Of a DNA stretch of 64,000 bases, positions 7,430 through 24,022 are shown one piece after another; position 1 is the first letter of the stretch, and each line of letters starts with the position of its first letter. The position numbers were made by a program, and so were the translations under genes. The stretch is taken from NCBI RefSeq assembly GCF_947489355.1, contig NZ_CANLDD010000011.1, positions 1-64,000 of the forward strand. Direction: 5' to 3'. This DNA comes from an uncultured Microbulbifer sp. Lineage in GTDB: Bacteria > Pseudomonadota > Gammaproteobacteria > Pseudomonadales > Cellvibrionaceae. Below the pieces are notes generated by a model. That model saw only the letters and a list, made by a program, of their open reading frames with translations. It did not search any database and was not told where the DNA came from.

Positions 7430-8704
7430 CTACTTGTAATCATCGACGGCTCCTTCAGGCTCGGGATACTCGCTATCAACGTGAATGCCCGGCAATAGTT
7501 CAATCACCCCCTGGCCGGTACCGGATTCCGCCGGCAATTCCCCATTGCGGGCGGGTGCTGCGGGCTGCGCTCGGGCATCATAGGGGTCGCGCGGGGTGTT
7601 TTGCGGTGTAACCGGCTTGTCCGCCACCACCCGCTGCAATCCGTTGACGATCACCGACTCGCCGGCAACCAGCCCCTGGTTTACAGCCCAGAGTTCCCCC
7701 TCCCGCTGCCCGAGGACCAGGTAGCGCTTGAGTGCCATATTCTTCTCGCCCAACACAAATACGTAGCGGCCCTGCATGTCCTCCAGCACCGCCGCTTGCG
7801 GCACCAGGGGTTTTAGGGCCTCACTGCCGGTAAAGACCCGGATGGAAACCCGCGCGAACTGCCCCTGCACCAGCAATTGGCTCGGATTGGGGAAGAGTGC
7901 GCGCACGGCGACAGAGCCGGTGGTCTGGTCGATCTGGTTGTCGATAAATACGATCTCGCCCCGGTAGGGGTAAAAGTTACCGTCCGGCAGCTCGATACGA
8001 ACGTCCAGCCCTATCGGCGACAGCCCCGTCTGGCGGCGCCTTTGCGTGTCCACCTGCAGGGCGTAGAGTTGGTCTTCCGGCACCTCGAACAGCACATAAA
8101 TGGGGTTCATCTTGACGATGGTGGTCAGCGGGTCCGAGTCGGGACCCACCAGGGAACCCTCGGTAAATTCGGTGCGTCCGATGCGCCCGGTCAGAGGGGC
8201 GTAGATCTTGGTGTAGGAAAGGTCCAGCCGGGCACTTTCCACTTTGGCCCGGTCTGCATCGACCTGGGATTTTGTCTCTTCATACGTGCCCATCAATTCA
8301 TCCATCTGTACCTGGCTGATGGCACCGGTGGCGACCAGGGTGCGGCCGCGGCGGAAATTGCGTTCGGCTACCCGCAGTGAGGCCTTGGATCGCTCCAGAT
8401 TGGCGCTCTGGTTGTCCAGTTCCGCGATAAAGGGGCGAGGATCTATCTCAAACAGCAGCTGGCCCTGTACAACGGTATCCCCCTCCTGAAAGTGCCGGCT
8501 CTGGATGTACCCCTGTACCCTTGGGCGCACTTTATATTCGTCGGTCGCTTCCACCCGGCCGACAAATTCAAAGCGCGGGATGACCGGCTGCTCACGCACT
8601 ACCAGTACCTCCACGGGGGGCGGGGGTGGCTTTTGCTGCTTATCTTTGTCACCACAGGCGCACAAGATAAATAACACAAGCCCAAAAAATACAATACGCG
8701 CCAT
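7430..8704 (-). CDS. RND efflux periplasmic adaptor lipoprotein (AcrA/MexA type)
   Basis: This membrane-fusion protein links the permease to the outer-membrane channel. The chosen start, ATG at 8704, gives a lipoprotein signal (MARIVFFGLVLFILCAC) with the modified cysteine near residue 18. A TTG 14 codons upstream keeps the frame open but would spoil the signal. The domain order is usual: hairpin-flanking lipoyl halves (GRVEATDEYKVRPRVQGYIQ and YTKIYAPLTGRIG), a coiled-coil hairpin between them, a beta-barrel, and the membrane-proximal domain. The tail is acidic and proline-rich and longer than in AcrA. It is the first gene of a two-gene operon with the permease and is divergent from the Nudix gene at 8807. 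Confidence 0.92.
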   Translation of the reverse strand: MARIVFFGLVLFILCACGDKDKQQKPPPPPVEVLVVREQPVIPRFEFVGRVEATDEYKVRPRVQGYIQSRHFQEGDTVVQGQLLFEIDPRPFIAELDNQSANLERSKASLRVAERNFRRGRTLVATGAISQVQMDELMGTYEETKSQVDADRAKVESARLDLSYTKIYAPLTGRIGRTEFTEGSLVGPDSDPLTTIVKMNPIYVLFEVPEDQLYALQVDTQRRRQTGLSPIGLDVRIELPDGNFYPYRGEIVFIDNQIDQTTGSVAVRALFPNPSQLLVQGQFARVSIRVFTGSEALKPLVPQAAVLEDMQGRYVFVLGEKNMALKRYLVLGQREGELWAVNQGLVAGESVIVNGLQRVVADKPVTPQNTPRDPYDARAQPAAPARNGELPAESGTGQGVIELLPGIHVDSEYPEPEGAVDDYK

Positions 8705-8806
8705 GGCAGACCGGGGACCGCCTTTGTACACTAGGGTTTCTAACAACTATAGGCGTCAAAAAGTCGGTGGGCTGGCGTTGGAATCCCGCATAGGTATACT
8801 GACGTC

Positions 8807-9346
8807 ATGAAATTTTGTAGCCGCTGCGGCAGCGATGCCGTCACACTTTCTATCCCCAAAGGCGACGACCGCCCGCGCCACCTGTGCGGCAACTGCGGCG
8901 CCATACACTACATTAACCCCCGGGTGATTGTGGGCGTACTGCCTTATCTCGATGACCGGGTCATGCTGTGCAGACGCGCCATTGAACCCCGTCGGGGACG
9001 CTGGACCCTGCCTGCCGGTTTTATGGAGAACGGTGAAACCAGTGAAGAGGGGGCGCTACGGGAGTCCTGGGAAGAAGCACGCGCTAACATTCGTATGGAC
9101 GACCTCTACTCAATCTACGATATTCCCCATATCAATCAGGTCTACCTGATGTATCGCGGCGAATTGACAGACACCAATTTCGGACCGGGGCCGGAATCCC
9201 TGGAGGTAGCGCTGTTTCGCAAGGGGGAAATTCCCTGGCCGGAGATCGCCTTTCCCATCATGCACAAAACGCTCGAGCATTATTTCGAGGACAGTGAGCA
9301 AGGGCATTACCAGTTGCACCGGGGCGTGATCTCACGCAAGCTGTAA
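8807..9346 (+). CDS. Nudix hydrolase with N-terminal zinc ribbon
   Basis: This 179-residue hydrolase starts with a zinc ribbon made of two cysteine pairs (CSRCG and CGNCG) and continues into a Nudix domain whose box reads GFMENGETSEEGALRESWEEA, with the metal-binding glutamates in place. The ribbon plus Nudix arrangement resembles NADH pyrophosphatase NudC, but the protein lacks NudC's extra N-terminal domain and its length fits a smaller family often annotated as ADP-ribose or nucleotide-sugar pyrophosphatase-like. Substrate is therefore uncertain. It is divergent from the efflux operon, with about 100 bases of shared promoter region. Confidence 0.85.
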   Translation: MKFCSRCGSDAVTLSIPKGDDRPRHLCGNCGAIHYINPRVIVGVLPYLDDRVMLCRRAIEPRRGRWTLPAGFMENGETSEEGALRESWEEARANIRMDDLYSIYDIPHINQVYLMYRGELTDTNFGPGPESLEVALFRKGEIPWPEIAFPIMHKTLEHYFEDSEQGHYQLHRGVISRKL

Positions 9347-9397
9347 ATCGCCCAATCTGCAATAGGACTGCCATTTGAAACACCGAGGGAAGCTTGC

Positions 9398-9910
9398 ATG
9401 AAATACTTCGCACTCCTTGCCGTGCTACTGCTAATAGGAAGCGGATCATTCATGCTTCTGCCCACTTCAATTGGCAAGCCTGTTTTGTCTCCGCCGCAAT
9501 GGTTGCACCCGGATACATTCACCAGCGCAAAACAACAGGCTCAAGACACCATAAAGGCACTACAGGCCCAACTACACAAGGCCGCGATACGCACCCCAGC
9601 GCTGGCGGAATCCAGCAATTCCCTACAGCGTGAAGCACCCAATACAACCACCACCGAAGTGTTTACCTGGCGGGACCGGGAAGGCAACTGGCACTTCTCC
9701 GATACGGTGCCGGAGGGGCTTGGCAGATCTGTGCGCATACACAGAATAAAACCCATCAATACAGTGCCCGTCACAGAAACCTCCCCCAGCGCGGCGCAAC
9801 GACCGCAAGAGCACTTCCCCCCTGGGGACAGTGTTTCCGATCTGCTAAAAGAGATCCAGGCACTGCAAAAAAAACGCCAGCAACACCAACAGGCGCTCGA
9901 CAACCTCTGA
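9398..9910 (+). CDS. DUF4124-domain envelope protein
   Basis: This 170-residue protein is anchored or exported through an N-terminal hydrophobic helix (YFALLAVLLLIGSGSFMLL). The middle carries the DUF4124 signature VFTWRDREGNWHFSDTVPEG around residues 86-105, a short beta-meander seen in many proteobacterial periplasmic proteins. The C-terminal 30 residues are a charged helix (LLKEIQALQKKRQQHQQAL) that should form a coiled coil. A good ribosome site (GAGGGA) precedes the ATG. The biochemical role of DUF4124 is unknown. It follows the Nudix gene after 51 bases and may be co-transcribed. Confidence 0.78.
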   Translation: MKYFALLAVLLLIGSGSFMLLPTSIGKPVLSPPQWLHPDTFTSAKQQAQDTIKALQAQLHKAAIRTPALAESSNSLQREAPNTTTTEVFTWRDREGNWHFSDTVPEGLGRSVRIHRIKPINTVPVTETSPSAAQRPQEHFPPGDSVSDLLKEIQALQKKRQQHQQALDNL

Positions 9911-10354: not shown

Positions 10355-10387
10355 TACAGCCCAGTCAAACGCTGTTTATAAGCGCAT

Positions 10388-11242
10388 TTAGAACATCATG
10401 GTCATCAGCTTGCGCTGGTATTGGGTGGCAACCGGATCGCCGGCGCCCAGGCTTTTCACGATATCCAGAAAGGTCTGCTTGGCAGCACCGTCGGCAAAGT
10501 GCATATCCCGGCGCAGAATATCCAGCAGCAGCTCCAGTGCTTCCTGGTGGCGGTCGGCCTGGCTGTACTGCACGGCCAGTTGATAAGCGGCGTCACCGTC
10601 TTGGGGGTTTTCCTTCAGCGCTTTCTGCAGGGCCTGGATTTCCGGCGTATCCGCCGCCTGTTGCTTTAATTCCAGCTGTGCCATCAGTTGCTGGTATTCG
10701 GCATCCTGATCAGCGAGCAGGATTTTCCCCAGTACCGTGCCCGCTTCCTGAGCGCGGTTCTGCTCAAGTAATAGCGCCGCCAATTGCTTGGCAATATCCA
10801 CGCGCTCAGTGGACTCACTGTAGGCCTGGCGCAATAGCGGCAGGGCCGCACCTTTGTTCCCCTCAGCGATCAACGCCTGTGCCTGCTGCAGTTTGATGTC
10901 CCAGGGTTTGGGCAGGTACTTGTCAAGCATTTCGCGAATCTGTGACTCCGGCTGCACACCGGTGAAGCCATCTGCCGGCTGACCGTCTTTGAGCAGCATC
11001 ACGGTGGGTAGGCTGCGCACGCCCAATTGCCCTGCGAGCATCTGCTCAGTATCCGCATTCACCTTGGCCAACAGGAACTGGCCGGCGTACTCATTTGCCA
11101 GCTTTTCCAGCACCGGCATCAATTGCTTGCAGGGCTCACACCAGTCGGCCCAGAAGTCCACCACCACCGGGCGCTGCATGGATTCTTCAATCAGTACCTG
11201 CTGGGCGTTGTCCGCCGTTACATCAATAATAAATTCGTTCAC
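10388..11242 (-). CDS. ybbN: Thioredoxin-TPR co-chaperone, CnoX/YbbN family
   Basis: This protein joins an N-terminal thioredoxin domain (residues 1-110) to four or so TPR-like helix pairs (residues 115-284), the layout of CnoX, which protects proteins from over-oxidation and hands them to GroEL. Here the thioredoxin site is a full WCEPC (C35 and C38), unlike the E. coli protein, which lacks the CXXC pair. It may therefore also reduce disulfides, as redox-active relatives do. The best start is the GTG at 11242, placed 5 bases after a perfect AGGAG; the frame opens two codons earlier at another GTG that overlaps this site. It is transcribed alone and ended by a strong hairpin. Confidence 0.88.
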   Translation of the reverse strand: MNEFIIDVTADNAQQVLIEESMQRPVVVDFWADWCEPCKQLMPVLEKLANEYAGQFLLAKVNADTEQMLAGQLGVRSLPTVMLLKDGQPADGFTGVQPESQIREMLDKYLPKPWDIKLQQAQALIAEGNKGAALPLLRQAYSESTERVDIAKQLAALLLEQNRAQEAGTVLGKILLADQDAEYQQLMAQLELKQQAADTPEIQALQKALKENPQDGDAAYQLAVQYSQADRHQEALELLLDILRRDMHFADGAAKQTFLDIVKSLGAGDPVATQYQRKLMTMMF

Positions 11243-15680: not shown

Positions 15681-16094
15681 CAGACAAAAAAAACTGTACA
15701 CAGCCAAAGCACATAATCCAAATTTAGGTGGTCAGGTAATTTAAGGTATTAGTGAAACTCGACGAGTGAGGTGTCCAGCTCACTGCCGCTGATACTGAAC
15801 TCCGCCCCAAGTTGAAACTCAAAAAGTGTATATATCCCGCTTTGCTGCAGCCTCAACCATCGCGAAGAGTAATATATCCATTGTGCGGGTCTTTGTAAGC
15901 CGTGCCGGGTTTGAACAGCAATGAACATGCGTGAAGCCTCAAGCGGGCCTTAGGGTTCTTCGGCCCTGTCACGAAAGGGTTCTATCCCCCGGCGAAATGA
16001 AAACCTCTCTACGCCCCCCCTGGGGGGAGGCACCGATGGGTTCCCACGTTAGAGTGAAGCAGATATAAGAGGCAATTTAAGAGAGAACACAATA
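15681..16094. other. Intergenic region upstream of the amylase gene
   Basis: About 410 bases without a credible gene. Visible are a C-run/G-run palindrome (seven C, one T, six G at 16014-16027), an AT-rich block near 15830-15890 and an AGAGAGAA ribosome site before the amylase ATG. A carbohydrate-responsive operator could lie here, but no known operator sequence is recognisable. Confidence 0.4.
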
Positions 16095-17771
16095 ATGAAA
16101 AAACTGGTCAGCGTGGCCGCCGCACTCTGTCTGATGGGGTTGGGTATGGCAAGTGCAACCGCCGCAGACAAGCGGGTGGTTGGGGCGCAGGTGGACCCTT
16201 TCTGGCGCAATGCGAGCGTCTATTTCCTGTTGCCGGACCGTTTTGCCAACGGCGATCCGGGCAACGACCGCGCTTATGGGCGCAAAGACGATGCCGAGCG
16301 GCTGCGGGGTTTTGCCGGTGGCGATCTCCACGGCGTGCTCGACAAGCTGGAAGCTGGTTATTTTCGCGACCTGGGGGTAACCGCCCTGTGGATGTCCCCG
16401 GTGGTGGAGCAGGTGCAGGGTTACGATGAGGGCGATGGCCGCACCTACGCTTATCACGGCTACTGGCCCCGCGACTGGACAGCGGTGGACGCCAACTTCG
16501 GCAGCGAGGCAGACCTGCGCCGGGTGATTGAAACCGCCCACAGCCAGGGCATCCGTGTATTGCTGGATGTTATTTTGAACCACGCAGGCCCGGTCACCAA
16601 GCGGGACCCTCTGTGGCCCGCGGCCTGGGTGCGCACCGCACCGGTGTGCGACTGGAAAAACTTTGCCGGCAATGTTCACTGCGCGCTCACCAGCAACCTG
16701 CCGGATATCCGCACGGAAAGCGAGCAGCCGGTGGACCTGCCCCCACACCTGGTGGCCAAATGGCGCAGAGAGGGGCGCCTGCAGCAGGAACAACGCGAAT
16801 TGGATGCCTTCTTTGCGCGCACCGGCTACCCGCGCGCGCCCAAGTATTACATCGTCAAGTGGCTCACAGACTGGGTGCGGGAATACGGTGTGGATGGCTT
16901 CCGCGTGGACACAGCCAAGCATGTGGAACCGGAAATCTGGGCGGTGCTGAAGAAAGAGGCCAGCCTGGCACTGGCACAATGGAAGGCAAACCATCCGGAT
17001 AAAAAACCCGATGACCGCGGCTTCTTTATGCTGGGGGAGGTCTACCATTTCGGCGTCGATGACTTCGGGCCCACCAAAGGCAGAGTATACAATTTCGGCG
17101 ACCGGCAAGTGGATTTCTTTGCCTATGGATTCGACAGCCTGATCAATATGGGCTTTGCCCAGCACGCTGCACAATCGCCGCAGGATATTTTTTCCCGCTA
17201 CTCCTCCGCTCTGCATGGAGGCGCCCTGGATGGGCTGGGCGTGCTCAACTACCTGGGTTCGCACGACGATCATCACTCCTTCGACCGCGAGCGCAAACAG
17301 GTCAGGACGGCGGCCCTCAAACTGATGCTGGCGCCGGGCGCCGCGCAGATCTATTACGGCGATGAAATTGCCCGGCCAATGATCGTGAAAGACGCCCGCG
17401 GCGACGCCTCCATGCGCAGCTTGATGAACTGGGAAGACCTGGAACGCAGCTCCACCCAAGCACTTCTCGACCACTGGCGCAAACTGGGACAGTTCCGCCG
17501 CGCCAATCTGGCACTGGGTGCCGGCGAACACAGGAAACTGGCGGACAAACCCTACACTTTCTCGCGCACCCTGGAGGGGGAACCCCCGGTACTGGTCGCC
17601 CTCGGTGTCAAAACCGGTAACAAATCCCTGCCGGTGTACGGTCTGTTTGCCGATGGCACCCTGCTCAAGGACTATTACTCCGGCACTGAGAGCCCGGTGG
17701 CCCAGGGGCGGGTTCATTTCAACACGGACAGCGACCTGCTCCTACTGGGGATCGCCCCTGGACGTGAATAA
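16095..17771 (+). CDS. Exported alpha-amylase, GH13 family (MalS-like)
   Basis: This 558-residue enzyme should cleave alpha-1,4 bonds in starch or maltodextrins in the periplasm or outside the cell. A signal peptide is clear (LVSVAAALCLMGLGMASATAA). GH13 landmarks appear in order: VLLDVILNHAG (region I), DGFRVDTAKHV with the nucleophile D272 (region II), MLGEVY with the acid/base E315 (region III) and YLGSHDDHH with the transition-state aspartate D391 (region IV). The long loop carrying CDW...CALTSNLPDI and the overall layout are close to periplasmic MalS-type amylases. No maltose transport or regulator genes adjoin it, apart from a LysR remnant downstream. Confidence 0.9.
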   Translation: MKKLVSVAAALCLMGLGMASATAADKRVVGAQVDPFWRNASVYFLLPDRFANGDPGNDRAYGRKDDAERLRGFAGGDLHGVLDKLEAGYFRDLGVTALWMSPVVEQVQGYDEGDGRTYAYHGYWPRDWTAVDANFGSEADLRRVIETAHSQGIRVLLDVILNHAGPVTKRDPLWPAAWVRTAPVCDWKNFAGNVHCALTSNLPDIRTESEQPVDLPPHLVAKWRREGRLQQEQRELDAFFARTGYPRAPKYYIVKWLTDWVREYGVDGFRVDTAKHVEPEIWAVLKKEASLALAQWKANHPDKKPDDRGFFMLGEVYHFGVDDFGPTKGRVYNFGDRQVDFFAYGFDSLINMGFAQHAAQSPQDIFSRYSSALHGGALDGLGVLNYLGSHDDHHSFDRERKQVRTAALKLMLAPGAAQIYYGDEIARPMIVKDARGDASMRSLMNWEDLERSSTQALLDHWRKLGQFRRANLALGAGEHRKLADKPYTFSRTLEGEPPVLVALGVKTGNKSLPVYGLFADGTLLKDYYSGTESPVAQGRVHFNTDSDLLLLGIAPGRE

Positions 17772-18006: not shown

Positions 18007-18024
18007 GCGGATGCTGCAAGGTGC

Positions 18025-18059
18025 CGGCCTTCCACCGGCTCGGGGCAATCGCCCTTGGC
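18025..18059. repeat. Short repeat of the PEPVEG-encoding type
   Basis: The minus strand reads GDCPEPVEGR in one frame. This is the accidental translation of a short palindromic repeat family found across many bacteria. Only one copy was noticed here, so the assignment is weak. The GC-rich 18010-18395 stretch around it contains no credible gene. Confidence 0.3.
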
Positions 18060-18395
18060 ACTGTTTCCCCGCGAATCAGGCAGAGTGTGTCGCGGTCGTG
18101 TCGTGCCATTGGATACCCCCCGCAAGGTTACTCTGCCCCGCACTACGGGAGGTTGCACTTACTACTCAATGTCGGTCTCTCCCGACTGTCACACCATTGG
18201 GCAGGTGTCACCCCATCCCGTCTACTCAACCCGACCCGAACAACACCACTACGGAAAAAACCCTTTTGCTGTGTGCCGCCCTGTGCAGCAGGCGTGTGCA
18301 TCGGCACGCCTCGTGTCTGCCTGGGTCCTCCCCGGGGAGGCCCCCAGCGCACAACCACCTCTCTCTCAACCAACCCGCGCCTGCGGCGCAGTTAC

Positions 18396-18599
18396 TCACT
18401 GTGGCGTGGCCGGTTCTTGGGACAATTGTTCTGATAAGCGCGCAAGCGTTCTCCAGCGGGGATTCTCGGTGGTGCCATTGGCGATTTTGATCAGAGTGAA
18501 GTAAGGCACGCCAGAGCGCTCGGAAATTTCTTTCCATTGGCCCCGGCGCTCCCGCAGTTGCGCCCTGACTTTTTCAAGCAAATCACCGCCTGTATCCAT
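18396..18599 (-). CDS. Small HTH protein, phage Cro-like
   Basis: This 67-residue protein is little more than a helix-turn-helix: LLEKVRAQLRERRGQWKEISERSGVPYFTLIKIANGTTENPRWRTLARLSEQL. The form is close to small XRE or Cro-type proteins of lambdoid and Pseudomonas phages. It has a GGGGG ribosome site before the ATG. It is divergent from a CI-like repressor gene, and three similar palindromes lie between them, which is the classic arrangement of a phage lysis-lysogeny switch. No other phage gene is nearby. Confidence 0.65.
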   Translation of the reverse strand: MDTGGDLLEKVRAQLRERRGQWKEISERSGVPYFTLIKIANGTTENPRWRTLARLSEQLSQEPATPQ

Positions 18600-18623
18600 C
18601 GAAGACCCCCATTTGAGGCTAAA

Positions 18624-18677
18624 TTAGCCATATTGGGCTCGAATGTCAAGCCATACATGGTTAGCCATATATGGCAA
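18624..18677. promoter_or_regulatory. Three operator-like palindromes between Cro-like and CI-like genes
   Basis: Three related 12-base sites lie in the 87-base divergent intergenic region: GCCATATTGGGC (18627-18638), GCCATACATGGT (18650-18661) and the perfect palindrome GCCATATATGGC (18664-18675). Their centres are 23 and 14 bases apart. The last one is 11 bases before the repressor start codon, so occupation should block its own transcription. This resembles the triple operators of lambdoid phages. That the two flanking proteins bind here is inferred from position. Confidence 0.65.
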
Positions 18678-18686
18678 TATGCGGGA

Positions 18687-19376
18687 ATGAAACATCAGCT
18701 GAGAAAACGGATCGCCGCCAGGCTCGACCAGGCCATGAGAAACAGCCCCAGCCTCTCCACCCAGGCGGCGCTAGGAAAGCGCAGCGGCGTTGGCCAGACC
18801 ACCATCGGTCGCATACTGCGAGCCGAGGTCGATGCCCGCGCGGAAACTTTGGGGGCACTCGCCAAGGCTCTGGGAAAGTCCGTGGCATATTTCACCGACA
18901 GCGGCAAACCACCGCCGGGCAACCTCATCCAGGAAACCCCACTCACCTATACCAGCGATGCCACCGCCCGTGAAATCTGTCGTCGGGTACCACTGATTTC
19001 GCCAGTGAAAGCCGTTACCTGGGCAGAGGCTTTTGAGAGTGGCACTGCCTGGGCAGACGGAGAGCAGATTCCCACCACCACCCGCGTCGGCCCGCGCGCG
19101 TTTGCCCTCAAGGTTGAAGGGGACGCCATGACCGCACCCAATGGCCTCTCCATCCCGGAGGGGTACATCGTGGTCGTGGACCCGGACTGCGACTGCGAGA
19201 ACGGCTCCATTGTGGCCGCCAGGCTGCCCGGCGACAAAAAAGTCACCCTGAAAAAGCTGGTTATCGATGGGCCCAATCAGTATTTGAAATCCCTCAATCC
19301 CGCCTATGTACCCATTCAAATGAACCGCAACGGCAAAATCATTGGCGTGGCCAAAAGTGTCCTGTTCGATCTGTAA
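18687..19376 (+). CDS. Phage CI/LexA-like repressor with degenerate autocleavage site
   Basis: This 229-residue repressor has an N-terminal XRE helix-turn-helix (STQAALGKRSGVGQTTIGRIL, residues 24-44) and a C-terminal S24/LexA-like domain (residues 100-229). In active relatives the C-terminal motif is GDSM with a catalytic serine, and the cleavage site is Ala-Gly in a VPLISWVQAG context. Here they read GDAM (A147) and VPLISPVKAV (A109-V110), while the general-base lysine (K189) remains. Self-cleavage during the SOS response is therefore unlikely, although the dimerisation fold may be intact. The start at 18687 fits the family; the frame is open further upstream only across the operators. It lies 284 bases ahead of the alkylation-repair genes. 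Confidence 0.82.
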   Translation: MKHQLRKRIAARLDQAMRNSPSLSTQAALGKRSGVGQTTIGRILRAEVDARAETLGALAKALGKSVAYFTDSGKPPPGNLIQETPLTYTSDATAREICRRVPLISPVKAVTWAEAFESGTAWADGEQIPTTTRVGPRAFALKVEGDAMTAPNGLSIPEGYIVVVDPDCDCENGSIVAARLPGDKKVTLKKLVIDGPNQYLKSLNPAYVPIQMNRNGKIIGVAKSVLFDL

Positions 19377-19660
19377 GGACAGCCCCAGCCCCTGAACAAA
19401 GCCCTCGCCGCGGTCCCACGGACCCCGCAATATGGCGTCCGGGCGCTTGCTGCAGCAGATTCCACGCCGGTCCCCCGCACACAGGCTGGCATTTTTTCGC
19501 GACGCAGCCCCCCTACTCCACACGCCCGCCAGCCGTTGACAGGCCCAGCTTCATAAAATCCAACTCCCTGTGTGGGCATCGATGGCACCGTCAGTACCGT
19601 TTTTGACTAGTCCATACCCTGCCATCGCCATACACTGGGAGGCTGAAACGGGAGGGGTCG

Positions 19661-23369: not shown

Positions 23370-24022
23370 TTAAGTCCCCGATGATTTCTTCAACTGAATG
23401 CCAACGTCTCTGACAATGGCTTTGAAAGACTTCTGTGTGCCTCCGAGAGGAAAGAGCAAGGTGGGGTTTCGATGGGTTGCCCAGTACGTGCGTAGTGCCT
23501 GCAGTGCCATCTTGGGCAGGAAGACGAAGCGGCCTTTCTTGCCTTTCGCATGGCGCACATGCAGAAGGCCTCGTTCGCTGTCGATATCGGCCACGCGAAT
23601 GCTATGGGTTTCCCTAAGCGCAAACCCATGCTGAAGCAGGTGAGAATGAAGTTATGGTAACGCCGCTCGTGGGCACTGTTGATCAACCACTCCAGATCTT
23701 TGGCAATTAGCACATTGGGGAGGTTTTTCTCTTGAGGCGGTTTGATAATATCCACCCACTGCCAGCCGCGCTTAAGCACATGCTTGTAAAGAAGCTGCAG
23801 GCCATTACGATCCACCTTTACCGTTGACCAGAAGTGGGAGCTGATGAGGGACTCGGAATAACCCTTAAGCTGCTCTTGGGAGAGGGTGTAGGTTGGGTTG
23901 TCAAAATATTCGCTGGCGCGGCTGTAAAGGTCAATGGTCAATTCAGCTTTGCCCTGACGTTTGCGTACGCTAAGATATTTTCGGTACAGTGAATCGAGTC
24001 GTTTCTGCTGTGCTTTATTCAT
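23370..24022 (-). pseudogene. IS91-associated tyrosine recombinase, frameshifted and truncated
   Basis: The first 140 codons give an integrase N-terminal core-binding domain (SSHFWSTVKVDRNGLQLLYK, then WQWVDIIKPPQEKNLPNVL) and the start of the catalytic domain with the first arginine (SMGLRLG). Directly afterwards the frame changes: the sequence continues in another frame as VADIDSERGLLHVRHAKGKKGRFVFLPKMALQAL. Adding one G at about 23612-23614, in a GGG run, would restore LRLGE. The C-terminus stops before the H-x-x-R and tyrosine boxes, so the catalytic site is gone. This type of integrase travels with IS91-like elements, but no transposase lies here. Confidence 0.8.

Follow-up and report, generated by a model that had tools for sequence, protein, structure and literature searches.

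An isolated CI/Cro immunity region with a repressor predicted to be blind to SOS cleavage

Main finding

The window (the whole stretch of 64,000 nucleotides that was analysed) carries a divergent pair of a cI gene (HTH and S24 domain) and a small HTH cro gene, which is the layout of a lambdoid immunity region. The repressor has lost both the serine nucleophile and the Ala-Gly cleavage site, and the stand-alone locus has been kept by vertical descent under purifying selection in two species (dN/dS <0.1). The explanation preferred here, held with moderate confidence, is a relict CI/Cro switch that would be blind to SOS and would give standing immunity to phages of the same operator type.

Locus and gene content

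The following genes were identified:

18396-18599, minus strand: cro-like gene P0002, 67 aa, with a match to PHROG phrog_9425 and a likeness to the Cro of PAJU2
18687-19376, plus strand: cI-like repressor gene P0001, 229 aa, with HTH_3 at residues 25-69 and an S24-fold C-terminal domain at 102-222
23370-24022: tyrosine-recombinase-like integrase gene, apparently frameshifted, with a weak Phage_int_SAM_4 match

P0001 matched Pfam HTH_3 and Peptidase_S24 (68.7 bits for S24, cut-off 23.3) as well as PHROG phrog_4, 'transcriptional repressor' (1.4e-35), and P22 c2 was 44% identical to it over residues 26-221. The PHROG matches of P0002 were phage repressors only (phrog_9425, 9.5e-16), and the Cro of Pseudomonas phage PAJU2 was 49% identical to it (9e-12).

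A first-pass annotation of this DNA had described two divergent HTH genes around palindromes in 87 bases, and had called them an orphan phage-type CI/Cro switch laid out like a lambdoid immunity region, which is supported. The coordinates of both genes were confirmed, and the pair, the operators and the cro promoter were all found. Its further claim that no other phage gene is near holds for intact genes: none of N, cII, O, P or int was found beside the pair, and the neighbours are bacterial. It does not hold for phage-type DNA in general, as a noncoding block (18011-18200) adjoins the pair and the apparently frameshifted integrase lies about 4 kb off. The DNA match to a second species of the genus (genome G040) ends before the integrase. 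In the explanation preferred here, the 1.4 kb from 18011 to 19392 form a chromosomal island, an immunity region without its phage.

Loss of self-cleavage residues

P0001 was aligned to lambda CI and also to nine relatives, and the residues were assigned as follows:

19011-19016, plus strand: codons A109-V110, Ala-Gly cleavage site lost (KAV for QAG), aligned with lambda A111-G112
19125-19127, plus strand: codon A147, nucleophile lost (GDAM for GDSM), aligned with lambda CI S149
19251-19253, plus strand: codon K189, general-base lysine kept, aligned with lambda K192

The alignment of the C-terminal domain thus bore out the two losses and the kept lysine that had been proposed earlier. No alternative serine or Ala-Gly site was correctly placed against lambda CI and the nine relatives, which ruled out a misplaced serine or another Ala-Gly site as an escape from the cleavage loss. 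Since Ser147 and the Ala-Gly bond are gone, RecA filaments would be unable to trigger self-cleavage, and autocleavage of P0001 should be impossible. In the predicted structure (pLDDT 83), the C-terminal domain superimposed on that of lambda CI (1f39; TM 0.83 by target length, rmsd 1.9 Å), and the structure matches included the uncleavable LexA mutants S119A and G85D, i.e., the same two kinds of change. By prediction, the domain is folded yet catalytically dead.

For comparison, 134 distinct S24 relatives were collected from prophages, viral contigs and genomes using patterns that admitted Ser and Ala. In this set, which is biased towards relatives of the query, the nucleophile site held Ser in 125 and Ala in nine, and the Ala-Gly bond was present in 91. 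The closest relatives (52-55% identity in the C-terminal domain, one of them C7 in the same genome) all had GDSM with QAG or AAG. A tree built without the trait columns, and having few columns and many weak forks, gave at least two origins of the Ser-to-Ala change among 133 relatives, one in the window species and G040 and the other in a separate Pseudomonas-type clade that also lacks the lysine and the cleavage site.

The Pseudomonas GDAM proteins (L237, L240, L241, L245, L133) are chromosomal S24-type regulators with Lys-to-Arg and without a cleavage site. They adjoin acyl-CoA dehydrogenase/biotin carboxylase genes, in most cases with a small gene facing them, and are predicted to be cleavage-dead CI-like proteins of independent origin. 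Two further GDAM S24 proteins (L132, L134) each have an integrase-like gene after them; likely mobile elements thus carry putatively cleavage-dead repressors too.

Operators and cro promoter

Within the 87-bp gap, a promoter for cro was predicted together with three related 14-bp operators, each of which has AGCC close to one of its ends and GGYW at the opposite one:

18626-18639: operator O1, AGCCATATTGGGCT, in the spacer of the cro promoter between -35 and -10
18649-18662: operator O2, AGCCATACATGGTT, with one change in G040 (AGCCATACACGGTT)
18663-18676: operator O3, AGCCATATATGGCA, ending 10 bp ahead of the cI start codon
18621-18649, minus strand: PR-type cro promoter, TTGACA-17 bp-TAATTT, overlapping O1 and O2

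With a three-related-palindromes statistic that was devised after inspection of the data, the gap scored 36, above all 300 dinucleotide shuffles (mean 24.7, maximum 33). The cro promoter was missed by a simple promoter scan because its -10 element fits the consensus at just three of six positions; it is kept in G040, and its form in a prophage of a third species (genome G007) is TTGACG-17-TAATCT. Operators and promoter were thus found again in two further species. An exact-pattern search for public phages with the same immunity returned none, and the O2-O3 core was on no IMG/VR contig. The sole phage known to have these operators is the single G007 prophage, which counts against standing immunity.

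Distribution, selection and origin

This type of Cro was present in three of the 48 genus genomes (the window's own, G040 and G007), and the island, A147 and A109-V110 included, was found at the same locus in one further species (G040) out of 47 of the genus. The window and G040 share the order amylase, cro/cI, ada-alkA, ogt and SIMPL gene; in the module-free species checked, amylase and ada-alkA are apart. The CI proteins of the two species are 93% identical. For cI, dN/dS against G040 was 0.095 (HTH 0.045, linker 0.29, C-terminal domain 0.11), and for cro it was 0.032; dS was 0.40 and 0.42, respectively, somewhat higher than the 0.26-0.30 of the neighbours. The presence in G040 of the same island with the same lesions and low dN/dS indicates that the island is maintained, and the predicted loss of cleavage is older than the split of the two species.

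Prophage genes beside the module in most relatives would have spoken against the first-pass annotation, and here the outcome was mixed: this Cro occurs in two relatives, and the module stands isolated at the shared locus in G040 and lies in a prophage in the other. The G007 prophage is P22-like and has an integrase beside a tRNA gene as well as terminase, portal and coat genes, the late-gene names being readings of ORFs and not family searches. Its immunity region has a Cro 61% identical to P0002 and the same three operators and promoter, and its repressor, which is without an S24 domain, shares 34 of 68 DNA-binding residues with P0001. As Cro type, operators and DNA-binding domain all recur in this prophage, the module is taken to be phage immunity DNA. 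The recognition helices of P0001 and the G007 repressor are nearly identical (GVGQTTIGRI and GVGQSTVGRI), which together with the common operators makes cross-immunity plausible. A scan of GTDB and IMG/VR with the single protein found no close relatives.

The G007 prophage (L074) also carries an apparent diversity-generating retroelement on the minus strand (8575-9903, 10368-10796 and 15755-16156). As read from its ORFs, it has one that is reverse-transcriptase-like and proteins with related CVRAVRSG ends.

Conserved noncoding block beyond cro

18011-18200, no strand assigned: noncoding phage-type block, 190 bp, downstream of cro, the best-conserved DNA of the island

The block is 96.3% identical between the window and G040, compared with 89.4% for cI, 91.2% for cro, and 42% and 68-76% for the flanks of the block. 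Its seven differences in 187 positions have a P of ~3e-15 at 25% divergence and of ~5e-4 at the rate of cI itself. One other full-length homolog was found, in G044 (L326), where it lies in a satellite/prophage region, near an S24 repressor and immediately ahead of a PriCT_2 primase gene; a search with the block model R1 gave strong full-length copies in G040 and G044 only. Shorter pieces of the block recur near matches to C4 antisense RNA, isrK and c4-a1b1, or ahead of other early phage-type genes. At five loci of the window's own genome and G040 (L319, L320, L331, L333, L334), the C4, isrK and c4-a1b1 Rfam matches are clustered and adjoin a 36-47 bp piece common to the window block. Given these phage and satellite neighbourhoods of its relatives, the block is considered a segment of a phage or satellite early region.

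No Rfam family matched 18011-18200 above threshold, and C4 (RF01695) gave no match up to E=10. A twister-sister hit in the block (15.9 bits, cut-off 34) was taken as chance. The block folded no more stably than its shuffles, covariation was seen at one pair only, in a set of too few sequences, and no terminator that would bound the cro-side transcript was found. The block may be a regulatory element of phages, RNA or DNA, that has so far gone unrecognised.

Alkylation-response genes and operator matches elsewhere

Recruitment of the module to alkylation-response control had been suggested in the first-pass annotation, and was not supported by synteny, upstream conservation or the operator search. 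The ada-alkA gene is present in 46 of the 48 genus genomes and has the module beside it in just two of the 46; Ogt follows Ada-AlkA in all 30 loci examined. In module-free species, DNA homology upstream of ada-alkA begins at ~19590, and the 70 bp upstream of the gene are conserved in genomes without the module. The stretch 19590-19660, with 94% identity in the two species that carry the module, is consistent with being the promoter of ada-alkA itself, and no CI operator was found between 19376 and 19661. The link was therefore rejected as unsupported: ada-alkA and ogt belong to the genus core, the DNA upstream of them stays conserved where the module is absent, and no operator is near.

Genome-wide, 17 operator matches were obtained against 10 with a reversed-pattern control, i.e., no enrichment. 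Three operator-matching sequences outside the island were common to the genomes of the window species and G040, and the sole flank-aligned pair lies inside a coding gene; no promoter-borne operators outside the module were seen in common. On this basis no wider CI regulon was found, the pattern being not enriched and no promoter site being seen to be conserved outside the island.

Preferred explanation and its rivals

By the logic established for phage lambda, CI bound at O1 and O2 would shut PR, and Cro at the sites would oppose CI. In the preferred explanation, a temperate P22/D3-like phage was lost and its immunity region stayed behind as a chromosomal island. CI dimers on O1-O3 would keep the cro promoter closed and would probably also control the cI promoter, and Cro on the same sites would set the opposite state. 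The fold of the CI C-terminal domain would have been kept for dimerisation and cooperativity. With a cleavage-dead CI, DNA damage would not flip the switch, and the repressor, acting in trans, would silence prophages and incoming phages whose operators match, so that protection would not be lost during SOS. CI may still be inactivated by another route, such as an antirepressor or a protease. Cro and the block are conserved as strongly as CI, which counts against standing immunity alone, as a locked repressor needs neither.

Because Cro and the block are kept, the main rival, less probable but a serious one, is a working bistable switch over its own PR transcript, in which CI would repress cro and the block (a small RNA or leader). 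Induction would be independent of SOS and would come from noise, stress or the antirepressor of another prophage, as in DicA/DicC with DicF. The intact Cro, promoter and operators speak for such a switch, as do the 96.3% identity of the cro-side block between species (~70-75% for neutral DNA) and its relatives in phage and satellite early regions near C4/isrK RNAs. The block, however, matched no Rfam family above threshold, folded no better than shuffles, had one covarying pair and was followed by no detected terminator, and with two close species its high conservation may have other causes. An extended form of this idea is unlikely: a domesticated minimal switch in which cleavage-dead CI and Cro would together govern a novel, conserved noncoding RNA (18011-18200) that acts on phages or the host, with SOS-independent, heritable on and off states, and in which CIs would repeatedly have been made host-safe by the same Ser-to-Ala change.

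Slightly less probable again is a host regulator recruited to control other genes, including the alkylation-response pair. The Ada-AlkA/Ogt genes do adjoin the module in both species, in the same orientation as cI, and IrvR/IrvA is a precedent for the recruitment of such pairs, but the adjacency is clade-specific, ada-alkA nearly always lacks the module and still keeps its 70 bp of upstream DNA conserved, and promoter-borne operators conserved elsewhere were not seen. A neutral relic, i.e., a decaying prophage fragment in which cleavage was lost by drift, would account for the absence of all other phage genes, the lost catalytic residues and the broken integrase nearby. It is very improbable, and appears largely refuted by purifying selection: dN/dS is 0.03-0.10 with dS of ~0.4, both frames are open, and promoter and operators are intact in two species.

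In the preferred explanation, the loss of cleavage would have a use. A phage repressor kept as protection is a risk, as DNA damage would destroy it. A dimer domain that is kept while the nucleophile and scissile bond are lost, with purifying selection in two species, makes P0001 a natural, putatively uncleavable CI, and the independent Pseudomonas Ser-to-Ala clade suggests a recurrent route. With this locus, the idea of domesticated, SOS-proof immunity, or of an SOS-independent epigenetic switch, can be put to the test.

Comparison with known systems

P22 c2 and lambda CI resemble P0001 in the HTH and S24 domains, fold, operator-promoter logic and lysine general base; they differ in having the Ser nucleophile, the Ala-Gly site and an attached phage. 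PAJU2 (Detrevirus) has the same cI-cro layout (Cro 49%, cI 32%), but its cI is of the cleavable type (GESM and QAG), its operators are different and the phage is complete. Prophage repressors that cannot be cleaved are common, and antirepressors often lift their action (PMC3121763, PMC10432266). The Gifsy GfoR/GtgR and N15 repressors are, like P0001, beyond SOS cleavage (PMC3121763, PMC10432266), whereas GfoR/GtgR homologues are small (~150 aa) and antirepressor-regulated, and no antirepressor is linked to the window module. The Pseudomonas GDAM regulators share the chromosomal setting, the S24-type domain and the Ser-to-Ala change, and differ in their independent origin, Lys-to-Arg, missing cleavage site and lack of any cro partner seen.

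The closest known systems are DicA/DicC of Qin and IrvR/IrvA, and the finding stays close to both. DicA (Qin prophage, E. coli) is without an Ala-Gly bond, and together with DicC it makes up a bistable switch that does not depend on SOS (PMC10448788). Like the window module, it is a divergent CI/Cro-type pair with three operators, no Ala-Gly bond and retention in a host lineage. DicA belongs to a cryptic prophage that can still be recognised as such and that has dicBF, the DicF sRNA and the antirepressor Rem, whereas the window pair stands alone and its repressor, unlike DicA, has also lost the catalytic serine while keeping the S24 domain. IrvR/IrvA of Streptococcus mutans, likewise an orphan CI/Cro-like pair of phage origin, is part of the core genome and is not coupled to RecA (PMC7101444); IrvR still self-cleaves (constitutively and independently of RecA) and controls known host phenotypes, whereas cleavage of the window repressor is predicted to be abolished. 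What sets the window module apart is the combination of a stand-alone island, an S24 domain kept with its nucleophile and scissile bond dead by prediction, and a better-conserved block beyond cro.
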